From contig NZ_JAANOP010000002.1 of the NCBI RefSeq assembly GCF_011250515.1, positions 186,001 to 250,000 of the forward strand: a stretch of DNA of 64,000 nt. The letters are read 5' to 3'. Positions 19,957-28,585 of the stretch are shown here, in pieces. Each line of letters begins with the position of its first letter. Position 1 is the stretch's first letter. Position numbers and translations under genes: made by a program. This DNA is from Aquirufa ecclesiirivi. GTDB lineage: Bacteria; Bacteroidota; Bacteroidia; Cytophagales; Spirosomataceae. The notes under the pieces are model-generated. The model had not been told where the DNA came from, did no database searches, and saw only the letters and a program-made list of their open reading frames with translations.

Positions 19957-20610
19957 ATGTTAGAATTAAAAAATATTTCCAAATCCTATGGGACACAATT
20001 AATTCTGGACAATATATCATTTAGTATTAAAAACAATGAGTTGATCTCCATTTTAGGACCTTCTGGTTCTGGGAAAAGTACCCTATTGCAAATCATTGGT
20101 TTATTAACAAACTACAATTCAGGTGAAATCTACTTGGATGGTGTAGCTTATTCTAGTTTGAATGAACAGGAACAAAGTTTTTTCAGAAATAATAAAATGG
20201 GCTTTGTGTTTCAATTCCATCATTTATTAGGAGAATTCTCTTGTGAAGAAAACATAAAATTTCCGCTCTACATTCGAGGAAGTAAATTAACTCAAGAAGA
20301 TGATGACTTCTTCAACAAAATAGTACAGAAATTAGGTATTAGTCAGATTCTGAAAAAATTCCCAGGTCAAATATCAGGTGGAGAACAGCAACGCGTAGCT
20401 GTAGCCCGAGCCTTGATCAATCGTCCCAGCGTACTTTTAGCTGATGAACCAACAGGGAATCTTGATAAACACAACGCAGAGAATCTGTATGATCTATTTT
20501 TGGAATTAAAACAAGATTGGAATCAACGAATTATCATGGTAACGCACAATGAAGCTCTCACGCATCAATCCGATCAAGTAATTATTTTAAATTCTGGCAA
20601 GATTCAGTAG
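19957..20610 (+). CDS. ABC transporter ATP-binding protein, LolD-like
   Basis: A 217-residue ATPase of the LolD/MacB/FtsE group. Walker A is GPSGSGKST (34-42), the signature is [15 protein letters not shown] near 143, Walker B is [12 protein letters not shown] near 165 and the switch histidine is in MVTHN near 195. LolD subunits power release of outer-membrane lipoproteins, and the downstream genes include an envelope lipoprotein (lptE). No permease of this system is adjacent, so the partner is elsewhere. The spacer to the divergent sucC is 95 bp. Confidence 0.87.
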
Positions 20611-20613
20611 TCA

Positions 20614-20639
20614 TTGTCTGACAAAATGTCATAAATTTG
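20614..20639 (+). promoter_or_regulatory. Palindrome and possible -7 box upstream of miaB
   Basis: TTGTCTGACAA (20614-20624) is a perfect odd palindrome, followed by a TGTCA half-site and TAAATTTG (20632-20639), a match to the Bacteroidota -7 box. No well-spaced -33 box is visible; the palindrome lies where one would be. The same CTGACA/TTGTC words recur upstream of groES at 24763-24791. Confidence 0.4.
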
Positions 20640-20662
20640 TGAATTAATTCAATTGTTAATTC

Positions 20663-22081
20663 ATGCAAGATTTAAAAGTACTCTCACCCGAGGAGGTAAA
20701 AGGATTGGATGAACCCAGAATTTCACCCAGTCAGAATCAGTCGGAGTATTCAAAAAAAATATATTTAGAGAGCTATGGCTGCCAAATGAATTTTGCCGAT
20801 TCTGAAGTAGTGACTTCCATTTTAATGGAACAAGGTTATGCTACCACATCCAATATTCATGAAGCTGACACCATTCTGCTAAATACTTGTGCTATCCGTG
20901 AAAACGCAGAGCAAAAAATTCGTCATCGTTTACAGAGTTTCAAGCCTATAAAAGCCAAAAATCCTCACATTACAATTGGTATTTTAGGATGTATGGCCGA
21001 GCGCTTAAAGACGCAATTATTAGAAGAAGAGAAAATAGTCGATTTAGTAGCTGGGCCAGATGCTTATCGTGATTTACCTCGTTTATTGGAAGAAGTTGAA
21101 GATGGAAACAAGGCAGTTAATGTCTTTCTGTCACGTGAGGAAACTTATGGGAATATTGAACCAGTGCGTATGCATACTAATGGTGTAACAGCCCTAGTCA
21201 GTATCATGCGTGGATGTAATAATATGTGTTCTTTTTGTGTTGTTCCTTACACACGAGGAAGAGAAAGATCGAGAGACCTTGATTCTATTTTAAAAGAATG
21301 TACTCAACTATTTGAATCTGGATACCGTGAAGTGACTCTTTTAGGTCAAAATGTAGACTCATATCATTGGCAAAATCCGGAAACAAAACAATCGATAAAT
21401 TTTGCTCAATTATTAGAAAAAGTGGCTCAACTTACCCCAGAGCTACGTGTTAGGTTCTCAACTTCACATCCCAAGGATATTACAAATGAAGTCTTATATA
21501 CCATGGCGAAGTATGAAAATATTTGCAAGAATATTCATTTACCCGCACAAAGTGGCAATAACCGAATTTTAGATTTAATGAACCGTACCTATACCCGTGA
21601 ATGGTATTTGGAACGAATACAATCGATTCGAAATATTTTAGGCGAATCTTGTGGAATTTCACATGATTTAATTGCTGGTTTTTGCTCCGAAACAGAGGAG
21701 GAACACCAAGATTCATTAAGTCTATTAGAAGAAGTTAAGTATGATTTCGGGTACATGTTTTCCTATTCGGAAAGACCAGGGACACCTGCGGAAAAGAAAT
21801 TAAGTGATGATATTCGAGAAGATGTTAAGAAAAGAAGGCTTCAAGAAATCATTGATTTACAAAGAATTCATTCTTCCTACCGAAATCAACTTATGATAGG
21901 TAGCGTTCAGCGCGTATTGGTAGAAGGTGATTCTAAGAAGTCTTCTGCCCATCATTTTGGGAGAACAGATAATAACAAGGTTGTTGTTTTTCCCAAGAAA
22001 GAGGAAATGAAAGGTGAATTTGTGGATGTAATCATTACTCATTGTACTTCAGGAACATTATTAGGTGAATTAATCAATTAA
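20663..22081 (+). CDS. miaB: tRNA-2-methylthio-N6-dimethylallyladenosine synthase
   Basis: A 472-residue radical-SAM methylthiotransferase that adds a methylthio group to i6A37 of tRNAs reading UNN codons. The three N-terminal cysteines for the auxiliary cluster are in [22 protein letters not shown] and LGCMAERL. The radical-SAM CxxxCxxC is Cys185, Cys189 and Cys192. A TRAM domain forms the last 65 residues. About 30 extra residues precede the conserved start, as is usual in Bacteroidota. It heads a tight run with the sigma-54 activator, lptE, a small unknown and secG. Confidence 0.96.
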
Positions 22082-22082
22082 T

Positions 22083-23393
22083 ATGGAATCAAGTCATCTG
22101 AATGCTATTAAAGCTCGCTTTGGAATCATAGGTAACTCTTCTTCCCTATTGCGTGCTATTTCAGTTGCGGAGCAAGTTGCCCCCACTGACATGACTGTGT
22201 TAATTACTGGAGAAAGTGGATCAGGAAAGGAATCATTTTCCAAAATAATTCACTCTTTATCTAAAAGAAAACATGGTCAATTCATTGCAGTAAACTGTGG
22301 AGCTATTCCTGAGGGAACCATTGATTCCGAACTATTTGGACATGAAAAAGGCTCATTTACGGGGGCTATAGAAGCCCGTAAGGGGTATTTTGAGGTTACC
22401 GATGGCGGTACAATCTTTTTAGATGAAATAGCAGAAATGCCGCTCGGAACACAAGCTAGGCTTTTACGTGTTTTAGAGAATGGTGAATTTTATCGAGTTG
22501 GTTCTTCTAAAGTACAAAGGACGAATACTCGTGTCGTTGCAGCGACCAACGTTAATCTTCAAGATGCTATATCCACGGGTAAATTTAGGGAAGATTTGTA
22601 CTACCGTCTTTGTACGGTACCTATATACGTACCACCTCTGAGAGAACGTGGTGATGATATTGAACTGCTTTTCAGAAAATTCACAACCGATTTTTCTGAA
22701 TTACATCGGGTAAAACCGATTATGTTGACACGTGAAGCGAAAGACTTGTTACAGAAACAACGATTTCCGGGAAATATTCGTCAATTAAAAAATTTAGCTG
22801 AGCAAATATCTGTGTTGGAAGTAGGAGATCGTATTGTAGATGATATTAAGCTTCAATACTATTTGGAATTCAACGAACCTAAGATTAATTCATCTGTTAT
22901 TAAGGGTGACTTTTTCACGAGTCCTGAAGGACTTAATGAGAGAGAAATTTTATATAAAATCTTGTTTGATTTAAAGCGAGATGTGACTGAATTAAAGAAA
23001 ATATTATTGAAAGTCATTGAGTCAGGTAATACCAACGCTTATGATATTATTTCCAATAATATGTCCATTTTTGAAGACATTAAGCCTGAGTTCTCCGATT
23101 TGCAAAAGAATTTAACACTTCCCTCAACCCCAAGTGCTGTGGAAGTTAGTCCTAATCCAATTGAAATTCATCCGATTTCAAATTCTACTATGGAGGAAGA
23201 TGTTAATTTTGAAGATGTGAGTGCCCAAGTGCAGGATGTTACTTTGTCTCTTGAAAAACAAGAGAAGGAGATTATCATCCGAGCCTTAAAGAAAAATAGA
23301 AATAAGCGTAAATACGCTGCCAAAGATTTAGGAATCTCAGAAAGAACCTTATATCGAAAAATTAAACAATATGATTTGGAAGATATTGCCTAG
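22083..23393 (+). CDS. Sigma-54-dependent transcriptional activator without a sensor domain
   Basis: A 436-residue bacterial enhancer-binding protein. The AAA+ domain starts almost at once: Walker A GESGSGKE near 40-48, the sigma-54 contact loop GSFTGA at 90-95 (Ser in place of the usual Ala), Walker B TIFLDEIAEM near 113 and the YYRL/PLRERGDDI sensor region. A linker of about 130 residues leads to a Fis-type helix-turn-helix (KYAAKDLGISERTLYRKI) at the end. There is no receiver, PAS or GAF domain, so activity must be set by level or partner. It lies 1 bp after miaB; a sigma-54 promoter precedes groES 1.4 kb downstream. Confidence 0.92.
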   Translation: MESSHLNAIKARFGIIGNSSSLLRAISVAEQVAPTDMTVLITGESGSGKESFSKIIHSLSKRKHGQFIAVNCGAIPEGTIDSELFGHEKGSFTGAIEARKGYFEVTDGGTIFLDEIAEMPLGTQARLLRVLENGEFYRVGSSKVQRTNTRVVAATNVNLQDAISTGKFREDLYYRLCTVPIYVPPLRERGDDIELLFRKFTTDFSELHRVKPIMLTREAKDLLQKQRFPGNIRQLKNLAEQISVLEVGDRIVDDIKLQYYLEFNEPKINSSVIKGDFFTSPEGLNEREILYKILFDLKRDVTELKKILLKVIESGNTNAYDIISNNMSIFEDIKPEFSDLQKNLTLPSTPSAVEVSPNPIEIHPISNSTMEEDVNFEDVSAQVQDVTLSLEKQEKEIIIRALKKNRNKRKYAAKDLGISERTLYRKIKQYDLEDIA

Positions 23394-23877
23394 AATGGCT
23401 GTACTTATCGGTATAATGGCACTTTGTAGTGGATGTTATAGTTTCAAAGGGGCTAGCTTGTCACCTGAACTAAAGACGATTCAAATCAGCAATATACGAA
23501 TGGAGACGGCTGGTGGCCCAGCTAATCTTAGTTTGGATGTAAATGAGCGATTGAAGGAATATTTTCAAAGAAATACTTCGTTGAAATTGACCACTCAGGC
23601 ACCCGATTTATTGTTAGAAGGTACGATCGTTGGATATGAATTGAGTCCCCAAGCCCCTACTTCGGATGATAAGGCTGGTTTGAATCGACTTACCTTACGT
23701 ATACAGTTTAGGTTGACTAATCGAATGGATGAGAATAAGAATTTTGATCAAGAATTTTCATTTTATCAAGATTTCCCTCAAAATCAAACGTTGAATCAAG
23801 TAGAAAAAACGTTGATTCCGAAATTATTGGATCAAATAATCTTAGATTTATTTAATAAAATTGCTGGAGATTGGTAA
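23371..23877 (+). CDS. lptE: LptE-like LPS-assembly lipoprotein
   Basis: A 168-residue predicted lipoprotein resembling the Bacteroidota LptE family, the plug that partners the LptD barrel in moving lipopolysaccharide to the cell surface. The signal is MIWKILPR (charged) plus a hydrophobic stretch ending in CSGC, with the lipidated cysteine at residue 22. I keep the ATG at 23371, which overlaps the activator gene by 23 bp, because starting at 23395 would remove the charged n-region. The mature part has the family pattern TIQISNI...RLKEYFQRNTSLKL...DLLLEGTIVGYE. Assignment is supported by conserved neighbours. Confidence 0.82.
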   Translation: MIWKILPRMAVLIGIMALCSGCYSFKGASLSPELKTIQISNIRMETAGGPANLSLDVNERLKEYFQRNTSLKLTTQAPDLLLEGTIVGYELSPQAPTSDDKAGLNRLTLRIQFRLTNRMDENKNFDQEFSFYQDFPQNQTLNQVEKTLIPKLLDQIILDLFNKIAGDW

Positions 23878-23880
23878 AAC

Positions 23881-24423
23881 ATGGATAGTAAGGCCCAAGA
23901 TTTATGGTTTCTATTAAATAAAATAGATCGAAGTAATTTGAGTCTGCAACATTCATTTGAGGCAGATAAAGAGGCATATCCATATTTTTATTTGTTGTTT
24001 TGGAATGAAAAATTCAATCCTAACCTGCAAAAAAAAATCGCATTAATGTCATCGTATAGAGAGCATTTTTTCAATTCAATCTTTGATATTGAAGAAATGG
24101 CACAGCCATTTATCGATGCAGAAAAAGTAACTCCACCTTTACCTGATGTGAAAGAGCAATTACAGGTCATCGATAATTTTTTACAGAACTTACCCAGCAT
24201 AGCTCGGCCTAAAAAGAATCTTTTAGATGAAGATTCCGATGTTTTAGACCTTTCTGAACTAAAAAATATCATTCCAGTGTCTGAAACATTTGCTAAAATT
24301 CTTGAAAGTCAGGAGAAGTATGAAAGGGCAATTGAGATGTATGAAAAATTAAGTTTGATTAAACCTGAAAAAAGCCTTTACTTTGCAACTCGAATTTCCG
24401 AATTGAAACATAAATTAATTTAA
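23881..24423 (+). CDS. Unrecognised soluble protein with C-terminal TPR-like unit
   Basis: A 180-residue acidic protein with no signal peptide or membrane segment. I do not recognise a named family. The last 45 residues (ETFAKILESQEKYERAIEMYEKL) look like one and a half tetratricopeptide units; the first 130 residues are helical and polar. It begins 3 bp after lptE and ends 7 bp before secG, so it belongs to the same transcript. A protein-interaction role is all that can be inferred. Confidence 0.6.
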   Translation: MDSKAQDLWFLLNKIDRSNLSLQHSFEADKEAYPYFYLLFWNEKFNPNLQKKIALMSSYREHFFNSIFDIEEMAQPFIDAEKVTPPLPDVKEQLQVIDNFLQNLPSIARPKKNLLDEDSDVLDLSELKNIIPVSETFAKILESQEKYERAIEMYEKLSLIKPEKSLYFATRISELKHKLI

Positions 24424-24430
24424 ATAAACG

Positions 24431-24757
24431 ATGTTCACCGTATTAATTTCTCTTATAGTTCTATTTTCAGCACTTTTAATCATTCTGATTTTGGTACAAA
24501 ACCCTAAAGGTGGTGGTATTAGTGGTGAGTTTTCTTCTGCAGGTGCTACTCAAATGTTTGGAGTACAAAAAACAGGAGATTTAGTAGAACAATTAACTTG
24601 GGGCTTTTCCATTAGTATTTTAGTTTTGGTGTTATTAACAAATTTCACCCTTTCTTCAGGAACAACAGACGCTACCCAATCGGTCAATGTGGAGAAAGCT
24701 GCTGGGAAAACATTACCTGCTGCCCCTGCTCCTAGTCCTGCTACACCGGCAAAATAA
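24431..24757 (+). CDS. secG: Preprotein translocase subunit SecG
   Basis: A 108-residue membrane subunit of the SecYEG channel. Two transmembrane helices (about 1-23 and 55-75) flank the conserved VQNPKGGGISGEFSSAGATQMFG loop. The tail after residue 78 is rich in alanine and proline and is likely disordered, common in this phylum. It is the last gene of the miaB run; 134 bp separate it from groES, and the hairpin in that gap may also end this transcript. Confidence 0.95.
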   Translation: MFTVLISLIVLFSALLIILILVQNPKGGGISGEFSSAGATQMFGVQKTGDLVEQLTWGFSISILVLVLLTNFTLSSGTTDATQSVNVEKAAGKTLPAAPAPSPATPAK

Positions 24758-24762
24758 ATATA

Positions 24763-24791
24763 CTGACACGGATTGTCGAATAACTGACAAT
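24763..24791 (+). promoter_or_regulatory. Candidate activator-binding repeats upstream of groES
   Basis: Two CTGACA boxes start 21 bp apart (24763 and 24784), two helical turns, on the same face of the DNA. Within them ATTGTC (24772-24777) and GACAAT (24786-24791) form a perfect inverted repeat with an 8-bp spacer. The group ends 18 bp before the sigma-54 -24 element. A site for the nearby activator is a natural reading, though enhancer sites are usually farther from the promoter. Confidence 0.5.
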
Positions 24792-24809
24792 TTTTCAGCT
24801 TACATTTTT

Positions 24810-24824
24810 TGGCACACATCATGC
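24810..24824 (+). promoter_or_regulatory. Sigma-54 (-24/-12) promoter of groESL
   Basis: TGGCACACATCATGC keeps the invariant GG and GC exactly 10 bp apart and matches the consensus TGGCACG-N4-TTGC except at two less critical positions. The start of transcription should be about 12 bases past the GC, near 24836, some 55 bases before the groES ATG. Confidence 0.72.
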
Positions 24825-24834
24825 TGATAAACAG

Positions 24835-24862
24835 AAAGTCCTTAGATGATAAGGACTTTTTA
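24835..24862 (+). terminator. 10-bp hairpin plus U-tract at the predicted groES mRNA 5' end
   Basis: AAAGTCCTTA (24835-24844), loop GATGA and TAAGGACTTT (24850-24859) form a perfect 10-bp stem followed by further T residues. It begins at the base predicted as the sigma-54 transcript start. It could be the terminator of the miaB-secG transcript, a 5' stabilising stem of the groESL message, or both. Confidence 0.65.
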
Positions 24863-24891
24863 TATGTTAATAACTTAAAATCTATATTATT

Positions 24892-25170
24892 ATGTCAAAA
24901 TTAAGTATCAAGCCCTTAGCAGATCGGGTTGTTGTTGAGCCTGCTCAAGCTGAAGAAAAAACTGCTTTTGGTATCATCATTCCTGATACAGCTAAAGAGA
25001 AACCACAAAAAGGAACCATTGTAGCCGTAGGAAATGGCAAAAAAGATGAGCCTATCACAGTAAGTGTTGGTGACTCAGTATTGTATGGTAAATATTCTGG
25101 AACAGAGATTACAATCGACGGTAAGGATTATTTGATTATGCGTGAGTCTGACATTTTTGCAGTTTTATAG
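24892..25170 (+). CDS. groES: Co-chaperonin GroES
   Basis: A 92-residue co-chaperonin that caps the GroEL cavity. It has the expected [37 protein letters not shown] beginning with the mobile loop around residues 18-32, and the conserved [15 protein letters not shown] segment. The length is close to the usual 90-97. It is 46 bp ahead of groL. No CIRCE inverted repeat is present upstream; instead a sigma-54 promoter and an inverted repeat are seen. Confidence 0.98.
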
Positions 25171-25216
25171 TTTTCATACTTTAAAATATTTCAACCAGTA
25201 AAATTTATTTAACAAA

Positions 25217-26848
25217 ATGGCAAAAGAACTATATTTTGACACCGAGGCGAGAGAAAAAATGAAAAGAGGGGTTGATACCCTTGCGAACGCCGTAAAAGTA
25301 ACATTAGGACCTAAGGGACGTAATGTAATCATTGATAAAAAATTCGGATCACCTTCTATTACAAAAGACGGTGTATCTGTAGCGAAAGAAATTGAATTAG
25401 AGGATCCTGTAGAAAACATGGGTGCTCAATTAGTGAAAGAAGTAGCTTCTAAAACAGCTGATCAAGCTGGTGATGGTACTACAACTGCTACTGTATTAGC
25501 TCAATCAATTTATACAATTGGTTCTAAGAACGTGGCCGCAGGAGCTAATCCAATGGATTTGAAACGTGGTATCGAGAAAGCTGTTGAAGCTATCGTAGGT
25601 AACTTGAGAACTCAATCTCGTCCTATCACTACTTCTACAGAAATTGCACAAGTTGCTACTATCTCAGCTAACAATGACGTGGAAATCGGTCAAATGATTT
25701 CTTCAGCCATGGAAAAAGTTGGTCGTGAAGGTGTTATCACTGTTGAAGAAGCTCGTGGAACTGAAACAGAAGTTAAAACAGTAGAAGGTATGCAATTTGA
25801 CCGTGGATATTTATCTGCGTATTTTGTGACTAATACAGACAAAATGGAAGTGGAATTAGAAAAACCATTCATTTTGATTTCTGAGAAGAAAGTATCTTCT
25901 ATGAAAGAATTACTTCCAGTTTTGGAGGCTGTAGCACAAACTGGCCGTCCATTGTTGATTATCTCCGAAGATGTTGATGGTGAGGCTCTTGCTACTTTAG
26001 TCGTGAATAAAATCCGTGGTGCACTGAAAGTAGCTGCTGTTAAAGCTCCTGGTTTTGGTGATCGTAGAAAAGCAATGTTAGAAGACATTGCTATCTTAAC
26101 AGGTGGTACTGTTATCGCAGAAGAAAGAGGTTTCAAATTAGAAAATGCTACTTTGGAATACCTTGGACAAGCTGAGAAGGTGATCATTGACAAAGACAAC
26201 ACAACGGTTGTTAATGGAAATGGTTCTAAAGACGATATCGAAAACCGTGTGAATCAAATCAAAGCGCAAATTGAAAACACGACTTCTGATTACGATCGTG
26301 AGAAATTACAAGAGCGTTTAGCAAAACTTTCAGGTGGTGTGGCTATCCTTTACATTGGAGCTGCAACTGAAGTAGAAATGAAAGAAAAGAAAGACCGTGT
26401 AGATGATGCTTTGCACGCTACTAGAGCAGCAGTAGAAGAAGGAATCGTAGCAGGTGGTGGTGTTGCTTTAATTCGCGCAATCAGTGCTTTAGATACCTTG
26501 ACAGGCGAGAACGAAGACCAAAATACAGGTATCAACATCATTCGTCAAGCAGTTGAATCACCTTTACGTACAATCGTTTCTAACGCAGGTGGTGAAGGAT
26601 CCGTAGTGATCAATGCGGTTAAAGCTGGAAAAGATGATTTCGGATATAATGCCCGTGAAGACAAATACGAGAATATGATTGCTGCGGGTATCATTGACCC
26701 AACTAAAGTAACTCGTTTGGCTTTAGAAAATGCGGCTTCTATCGCTGGATTATTATTAACTACTGAATGTGTCATAGCTGATAAACCAGCTTCTGAACCA
26801 GCTCACGGTCATGGACCAGGTGGTGGCGGAATGGGTGGCATGATGTAA
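25217..26848 (+). CDS. groL: Chaperonin GroEL
   Basis: A 543-residue chaperonin subunit. The ATP-binding [15 protein letters not shown] (about 27-41) and [14 protein letters not shown] (about 84-97, with the catalytic Asp) are intact, as is the GGGVALIRA motif near 413. The C-terminus ends in a glycine-methionine tail after a histidine/proline insert (PAHGHGPG). With groES it forms an operon closed by a strong terminator at 26869. The codon choice is smoother and the GC slightly higher than in neighbouring genes, as expected for high expression. Confidence 0.99.
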
Positions 26849-26868
26849 TTAAATTAGATTTTTAAGTG

Positions 26869-26899
26869 AAAACTCCCCATCTTTGGGGAGTTTTTTTTT
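26869..26899 (+). terminator. Intrinsic terminator of groESL
   Basis: AAAACTCCCC (26869-26878), a 6-nt loop and GGGGAG followed by nine T residues form a classical terminator 21 bp after the groL stop. Confidence 0.95.
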
Positions 26900-26911
26900 A
26901 CAATACTCTCA

Positions 26912-27436
26912 ATGAAAAGAATTGCCATTGATATGGATGATGTCTTAGCTGATACGTCCATTAAAATTATAGATCAAATAAATAATCGTCTGAATAAATC
27001 GTATCAACATGCTGATTTGGTTCAAAGTGACGCATTGAAATTAGCTTTTTACGAAGATTATCAAGCAAATAACCAATTTTTATGGGAACCTGGTTTTTTC
27101 TTAGATATTGCAGTTAAGGAAGATGCCATTGGTGTGGTTAAAAAATTGCAAGAAAAATACGAAGTATTCATTGTATCTGCTGCCACAGAATTTCCAGAAT
27201 CGATGAAAGAAAAGTTGATATGGTTAGAACAGCATTTCCCTTTTATAGGTTGGAAACACACCGTATTTTGTGGTCATAAATATATGATTCAAGCAGACTT
27301 CTTGATTGATGATCATGAGAAAAATCTAGCCTCGTTTACAGGTAAACCTATCCTTTATTCCGCGCTTCATAACCTTCATATACATGACTACGACCGTGTG
27401 AGTACTTGGAAAGAAGTGGGCCATTTATTTTTATAG
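26912..27436 (+). CDS. 5'(3')-deoxyribonucleotidase-like HAD phosphatase
   Basis: A 174-residue member of the NT5C group of HAD hydrolases, which remove phosphate from deoxynucleoside monophosphates and so restrain dNTP pools. The nucleophile motif is DMDDVLADT (8-16), motif II serine/threonine is in IVSAATEFPESM near 90, and motif III/IV is FLIDDHEKNL near 130. There is no signal peptide. Its start is only 12 bp beyond the groESL terminator, and the promoter would have to overlap that stem. Confidence 0.87.
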   Translation: MKRIAIDMDDVLADTSIKIIDQINNRLNKSYQHADLVQSDALKLAFYEDYQANNQFLWEPGFFLDIAVKEDAIGVVKKLQEKYEVFIVSAATEFPESMKEKLIWLEQHFPFIGWKHTVFCGHKYMIQADFLIDDHEKNLASFTGKPILYSALHNLHIHDYDRVSTWKEVGHLFL

Positions 27437-27448
27437 TTTTTGACATCT

Positions 27449-28585
27449 ATGCTTCAAGCTAGACTTGCTATTAGTGTATTATTTCTTGTTTGCGGATTAA
27501 ATTTTGCTTCCTGGGCAACTAGAATTCCTGATTTTAAAGATTTTTTATCCTTATCAGATGCTGAATTAGGAAGTATACTGATGGGACTACCTATTGGTTC
27601 TATGGTCTCCCTCCCCTTAGCAGGATGGTTAATTGCCCGCTATAATTCGAAAATCATTTGTTTGCTGTCCGTCGTTTTATATATTATTATATTACCTGCA
27701 CTAACGTATATTTCTACTTCCTTATTTCTATTTATAGGTTTGTTTTCATTTGGAATGGCGGGAGATTTGTTAAATATTTCCATGAACACCCAAGTGGTTG
27801 CATTGGAAAAAATGACTAACAAGAAAATCATGTCCTCATTTCATGCCATATTTTCTATTGGTTTGATGTTAGGGTCATTGCTGGGTGGTTATTTAGTGAA
27901 AAAGAACATTTCATTAGAGCATCACTTTTATCTCATTGCTATATGTAATGTGGTTTCCATTATAGGAGTATATCAGGCATTATTAATTGATTCAAAAAAT
28001 TTAGAGCAAGAAAATGAGGTTGTCAAAGCCAAGTTTAAAATAAACAACTATTTACTGATTCTTTCTTTTATAGCTTTTTGCGGAATGCTTTGTGAAGGTG
28101 CCATGGCAGATTGGATAAGCCTCTATTTTAAATCTATCCCTAATTTAGAAGGATATCCATTCACTATAGGATTTTCTTCTTTTGCCTTTTCCATGGTTAT
28201 CGGGAGATTTTTGGGTGATTGGGCCGCTCAACATATTTCCATAAGAAATATCCTAATGTTCAATGGTATTTTAATTGCTCTAGGTATGAGCATTACCGTA
28301 CTTTTTATGAATGTCAATGTGTTAATATTGGGATGTTTTATAACTGGTTTGGGCATTTCAACTATCGTCCCAATGATCTATTCACAAGCTGGAAATACCC
28401 GTGATACATCACCTGCCATGGCTATTGCCGCAGTTTCTACCATCGCATATATTGGATTTATGTTAGGTCCTGTGGTGATTGGCTTTCTTTCTGAATACTT
28501 TGGACTCCAAAGAGCCTTAGTACTGCTTATCATGCTAGGAGTTTTAGCAAGTGGTATTAGCAAGTTTGCATTGAGCAAAGATTAA
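27449..28585 (+). CDS. MFS transporter, YbjJ-like
   Basis: A 378-residue twelve-helix transporter of the major facilitator superfamily. The N-terminus GLNFASWATRIPDFKDFLSLSDAELG closely follows the YbjJ-type layout, and the loop after helix 2 carries LIARYNSKI. Relatives are poorly characterised; sugar or drug export has been suggested for some. I use the ATG at 27449 rather than the TTG at 27440, since the signal-like first helix begins right after it. It follows the nucleotidase gene by 12 bp. Confidence 0.8.
   Translation: MLQARLAISVLFLVCGLNFASWATRIPDFKDFLSLSDAELGSILMGLPIGSMVSLPLAGWLIARYNSKIICLLSVVLYIIILPALTYISTSLFLFIGLFSFGMAGDLLNISMNTQVVALEKMTNKKIMSSFHAIFSIGLMLGSLLGGYLVKKNISLEHHFYLIAICNVVSIIGVYQALLIDSKNLEQENEVVKAKFKINNYLLILSFIAFCGMLCEGAMADWISLYFKSIPNLEGYPFTIGFSSFAFSMVIGRFLGDWAAQHISIRNILMFNGILIALGMSITVLFMNVNVLILGCFITGLGISTIVPMIYSQAGNTRDTSPAMAIAAVSTIAYIGFMLGPVVIGFLSEYFGLQRALVLLIMLGVLASGISKFALSKD

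Follow-up and report, generated by a model that had tools for sequence, protein, structure and literature searches.

A sigma-54 activator encoded upstream of groESL as the probable regulator of proteostasis genes in Aquirufa ecclesiirivi and other Bacteroidota

The groESL operon of Aquirufa ecclesiirivi is located downstream of a gene block encoding, among other proteins, a sigma-54 activator (EBP). The window, that is the whole stretch of 64,000 nucleotides that was analysed, originates from a genome of 3.1 Mb (36 contigs, 99.7% complete). The block comprises, all on the plus strand, miaB (20663-22081; Pfam UPF0004, Radical_SAM and TRAM), the EBP gene (22083-23393), lptE (23371-23877; Pfam LptE, 2.5e-15), a conserved open reading frame of 180 amino acids (23881-24423; no Pfam match) and secG (24431-24757; Pfam SecG, TIGR00810), followed by groES (24892-25170; Pfam Cpn10, 5e-33) and groEL (25217-26848; Pfam Cpn60_TCP1, 2.6e-75). 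Nearly all of 80 family loci showed the gene order miaB-EBP-lptE-ORF-secG, groES-groEL often following secG inside the fetched stretch. An Rfam search of positions 20300-27500 gave no match.

The HrcA/CIRCE and sigma-32 types of heat-shock control act on the same targets, namely groESL and dnaK operons. However, the CIRCE element is absent here and sigma-54 activation is proposed instead. As reported in the earlier note, no CIRCE element was detected in the window (0 matches at up to three mismatches), and in 128 chaperone upstream regions the best sites carried as many mismatches as those of shuffled sequences, none being beyond chance. Control by HrcA/CIRCE was rejected due to the absence of the element from both the window and the 128 regions.

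The sigma-54-type site noticed earlier upstream of groES, TGGCACACATCATGC (24810-24824, plus strand), was recovered with its GG-N10-GC spacing. According to its sequence and its conservation in relatives it represents a -24/-12 promoter with a predicted start near 24836, ahead of groES at 24892. Taken singly, this site is not above chance: at up to two mismatches the sigma-54 pattern matched 45 times in the window versus 37.6 expected, and TGGCAY-N6-TGC matched 45 times genome-wide versus 25 for the reversed control. The box alone was rejected as evidence since such scans stay near background and most genomic matches lie inside genes. The groESL site is judged to be real because it is conserved across the phylum. 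In 89 of 98 Bacteroidota loci groES is preceded by TGGCA-N8-G (shuffled regions: mean 4.0, maximum 9), and in the phylum alignment the -24 TGGCA is strict, the GG being present in all anchored loci, while about 96% of loci retain the -12 G. Conservation of GG and GC in relatives had been set beforehand as a refuting test; the GG and the -12 G are conserved, but the C following the latter is present in only 26 of 89 groES loci (29%; GA 33, GC 26, GT 21).

This reduction of the -12 GC to G in most relatives could be taken to indicate that TGGCA-N8-TG serves a different sigma factor as promoter or forms part of an operator, sigma-54 not being involved at groESL. Such a scenario is highly improbable, because the -24/-12 spacing is exact, the sigma-54 motif linked to start sites in Flavobacterium psychrophilum covers the same genes (PMC9723704) and rpoN is present in all 296 sampled Bacteroidota genomes. 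Due to this ubiquity the loss of rpoN is unusable as a phylogenetic test.

Besides the sigma-54 box, the alignment of the groES promoters contains a dyad of the form TGNCA-N3-TGNCA about one helical turn upstream of the TGG; no further shared motif was seen. In the window this dyad corresponds to CTGACAATTTTTCAG (24784-24798, plus strand; centre about -45), a predicted EBP binding site supported by the promoter alignment and composite scans. Both CTGACA boxes described earlier are present, starting at 24763 and 24784 and thus 21 bp apart; the distal half-site (24763-24768, plus strand) is kept among the closest relatives only. The letters of the previously noticed inverted repeat ATTGTC-N8-GACAAT are present as well, but it is not the conserved dyad, its ATTGTC half being lost even inside the genus. 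It was rejected as operator in favour of CTGACAATTTTTCAG.

The same palindrome is shared by groES, dnaK, grpE and htpG, where it precedes the -24 box by one or two helical turns. The gaps between dyad and TGG cluster at 11-13 and 22-24 bp, and the dyad centres accordingly lie near -45 or -56. At groES, wider gaps of 32-35 bp were left out of the support, since they partly represent secG terminator hairpins (TGCCAGC...GCTGGCA); in Flavobacteriales loci such as L314 and L319 the stem of this terminator mimics the operator palindrome and is easily confused with it. Many flavobacterial groES promoters have kept just one half-site. We infer that the protein binding the dyad is EBP.

Since secG and groES are co-directional and close, and no terminator was seen between secG and the dyad in the window, transcription of groESL might also come mainly from secG by read-through, or else start at a sigma-A promoter, which would leave the sigma-54 promoter a minor role. 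This appears quite improbable, as the stretch from secG to groES showed no TAnnTTTG box and the sigma-54 site is followed by a strong hairpin with a T run. In addition, the promoter is conserved over the phylum though the distance between secG and groES varies widely.

The hairpin (24833-24861, plus strand; MFE -14.3 kcal/mol, z -3.2), which is absent from the earlier note, begins where the groESL mRNA is predicted to start and may be either a leader stabiliser or a terminator of secG read-through. Another locus (L075) carries an equally strong hairpin of different sequence at the same place.

The composite of dyad and sigma-54 box distinguishes a small set of genes. The exact composite yielded 48 matches in ten related genomes versus 3 in the reversed control, 35 of them at the groES, dnaK, grpE and htpG operons and the remainder non-recurrent. 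The site of grpE was recovered blind by a genome mismatch scan and has the same geometry as that of groES; in a targeted retrieval from the ten genomes the gap between dyad and box was 23 bp at dnaK, 12 bp at grpE and 13 bp at htpG. A stricter composite gave 52 matches in 148 Bacteroidota genomes versus 10 in the control. Proteostasis genes follow, mostly with a 12-bp gap in the composite, in 25 of 30 fetched phylum loci, encoding GrpE (15), DnaK (3), thioredoxin (3), HtpG, DegP, a rhomboid protein and Hsp20. This gene set overlaps the genes listed with sigma-54 promoters in F. psychrophilum (PMC9723704).

In the window's own genome no composite site was found upstream of clpB, clpC or rpoN, clpB being without a clear site. 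A DegP/HtrA-like gene of the same genome (L214:585-1700) is preceded by TGGCACACATTTTGC (L214:529-543), the full dyad being absent. Since the full composite site precedes a DegP-like gene in L350, degP may belong to the regulon.

The activator itself is encoded 1.4 kb upstream and, as claimed before, has AAA+ and Fis-type domains. Its open reading frame is the sole strong PF00158 match in the genome (2.9e-67); the remaining matches are weak and the best two were read as Clp-type ATPases. Most genomes of the genus have a single such EBP, a second one being found in 2 of 10. The single rpoN of the genome encodes a complete product of 479 amino acids with AID, CBD and DBD. EBP has the Walker A motif GESGSGKE, the loop GSFTGA (GAFTGA in relatives) and a Fis-type HTH (HTH_8, 5.6e-12, residues 389-430) with a recognition helix that is invariant across the family. 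Its designation as sensor-less is correct for the N-terminus, where no sensor domain is present, but overlooks an invariant-rich helix (286-306) within the approximately 135 residues between AAA+ and HTH. The conserved stretch 284-306 could be the signal entry point. The AlphaFold model (mean pLDDT 63, linker below 50) is too poor to judge a signal site.

PspF of Escherichia coli is a sigma-54 EBP composed of AAA+ and Fis-type HTH domains without an N-terminal sensor, which serves a stress regulon, controls its own promoter and acts from far-upstream enhancers with IHF. The window EBP resembles it in domain composition, in its presumed stress regulon and in the predicted control of its own promoter. 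However, EBP scores 262.8 bits against the PspF model TIGR02974, below the cut-off of 443.55, and it differs in its target genes, its long conserved linker and its dyads at -45 in place of far-upstream enhancers. Bacterial enhancer-binding proteins usually bind far upstream and act by looping, although this is not a strict requirement; the dyads described here centre at about -45 or -56.

A further dyad lies in front of the operon that encodes EBP. The operator TGACAAAATGTCA (20619-20631, plus strand), a conserved palindrome and the predicted autoregulatory site of the miaB-EBP-lptE-secG operon, abuts TAAATTTG (20632-20639, plus strand), which matches the Bacteroidota sigma-A -7 consensus TAnnTTTG (PMC9723704). 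Upstream of miaB the dyad was present in 21 of 21 family genomes and, among the named loci of the phylum, in 55 of 59 (shuffle mean 0.23); its density there is about 100-fold that of the background. It was not found before the EBP operon in the 20 loci where miaB is not adjacent, many of which belong to Bacteroidales. At the miaB promoters the distances from dyad start to -7 box start cluster at 31, 22-23 and 13 bp, which places the dyad over the -33 region or the spacer. Because the palindrome overlaps the housekeeping promoter upstream of miaB-EBP, EBP probably represses its own operon, the negative sign being inferred from this geometry. The coupling of envelope assembly with folding stress proposed in the earlier note is only half supported: lptE and secG do belong to the EBP operon, and the same operator is present at its promoter, but the placement of this operator suggests repression, not co-induction.

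The position of the dyads, directly beside the -24 box and across the sigma-A promoter, would also suit a separate repressor that keeps both the miaB-EBP operon and the sigma-54 chaperone promoters silent, while EBP acts from solution or from another site. In Porphyromonas gingivalis the regulator RprY has been reported on the groES, dnaK and clpB promoters (PMC3646045). Nevertheless, a separate repressor seems unlikely, since the Fis-type HTH of EBP is intact and invariant and must have a site to bind, and the groES promoters showed no alternative shared motif. Furthermore, EBP is the sole regulator gene in the autoregulated operon, the dyad also occurs at htpG, to which RprY did not bind, and it shifts by whole helical turns as expected of an activator touching the polymerase. 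RprY, likewise a Bacteroidota regulator at chaperone promoters, differs from EBP in being a two-component response regulator that was described as repressor, without htpG binding or a shown link to sigma-54 (PMC3646045).

We consider it likely that EBP is an activator dedicated to a sigma-54 regulon of proteostasis genes and binds the dyad both there and at its own promoter. The earlier note did not recognise that one operator connects the four chaperone operons with that of EBP. The control of groESL by sigma-54 and the neighbouring EBP, as suggested earlier, is well supported by the single rpoN and EBP, the promoter in relatives, the shared operator and the published sigma-54-type start at groESL in F. 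psychrophilum (PMC9723704). EBP would bind TGNCA-N3-TGNCA immediately upstream of the sigma-54 holoenzyme on the same helical face, and its AAA+ ring would open the promoters of groESL, dnaK, grpE and htpG in the genus and, elsewhere in the phylum, also those of further protease, Hsp20 and thioredoxin genes. On the same dyad over the sigma-A promoter of miaB-EBP-lptE-secG it would most likely repress, thereby keeping its own level constant. If so, the signal must act on the activity of EBP, plausibly through its release from a chaperone or another partner, perhaps via the conserved helix between AAA+ and HTH. Counting against this proposal are the dyads at -45, which are nearer than textbook enhancers and placed like repressor sites, the weak conservation of the -12 C, the single half-site at many flavobacterial groES promoters, the missing dyad before EBP operons that have no miaB next to them and the lack of a clear site at clpB in the window's genome. 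The wider reading, that a single family of EBPs serves most Bacteroidota as master regulator of the heat-shock type, acting through helically phased, loop-free contact with sigma-54 and as sigma-A self-repressor, with its activity set by chaperone titration via the AAA+/HTH helix, is conceivable and put forward tentatively.

Sigma-54 promoters at these genes are already known. Start-site mapping in F. psychrophilum assigned them to groESL, lon, dnaK, grpE-dnaJ, htpG, clpB and the genes of a rhomboid protease and a thioredoxin-family protein, the activator not being assigned (PMC9723704), and a survey from 2025 found sigma-54 sites enriched at Bacteroidota chaperone genes (PMC12316311). The SM4 (sigma-54) promoters of F. 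psychrophilum are alike in their -24/-12 elements at the same chaperone genes and the EBP-lptE pair is also present there; however, that species has three EBPs and the main text gives no operator, whereas the window genome has a single EBP, a dyad common to several promoters and a predicted site of autoregulation (PMC9723704). In the open literature searched, most subscription journals lying outside the search, no paper naming this EBP or its operator was found, and the activator assignment, the operator and the autoregulation look new within it.

If the proposal is true, it identifies a regulator of the heat-shock type that has been missing for one of the major phyla of bacteria, and it yields a candidate regulator, a DNA operator and a predicted feedback loop for the core chaperones of those Bacteroidota in which no CIRCE system is evident. 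The regulon would help to explain the retention of rpoN in 296/296 sampled genomes. In a genus in which EBP is nearly the sole sigma-54 activator, one knock-down would test the whole regulon, and the operator, being close to the promoter and helically phased, departs in a testable way from the enhancer looping of textbooks.

According to the phylum comparison the miaB-EBP block is largely maintained in Flavobacteriales, Sphingobacteriales and others. The 180-amino-acid protein (23881-24423), which has no Pfam match, is encoded between lptE and secG over much of the phylum. The same miaB-EBP-lptE order was also observed on a contig assigned to a Caulobacteraceae MAG (L269), whose EBP is 82% identical to that of the window; this is probably a mis-binned Bacteroidota contig.
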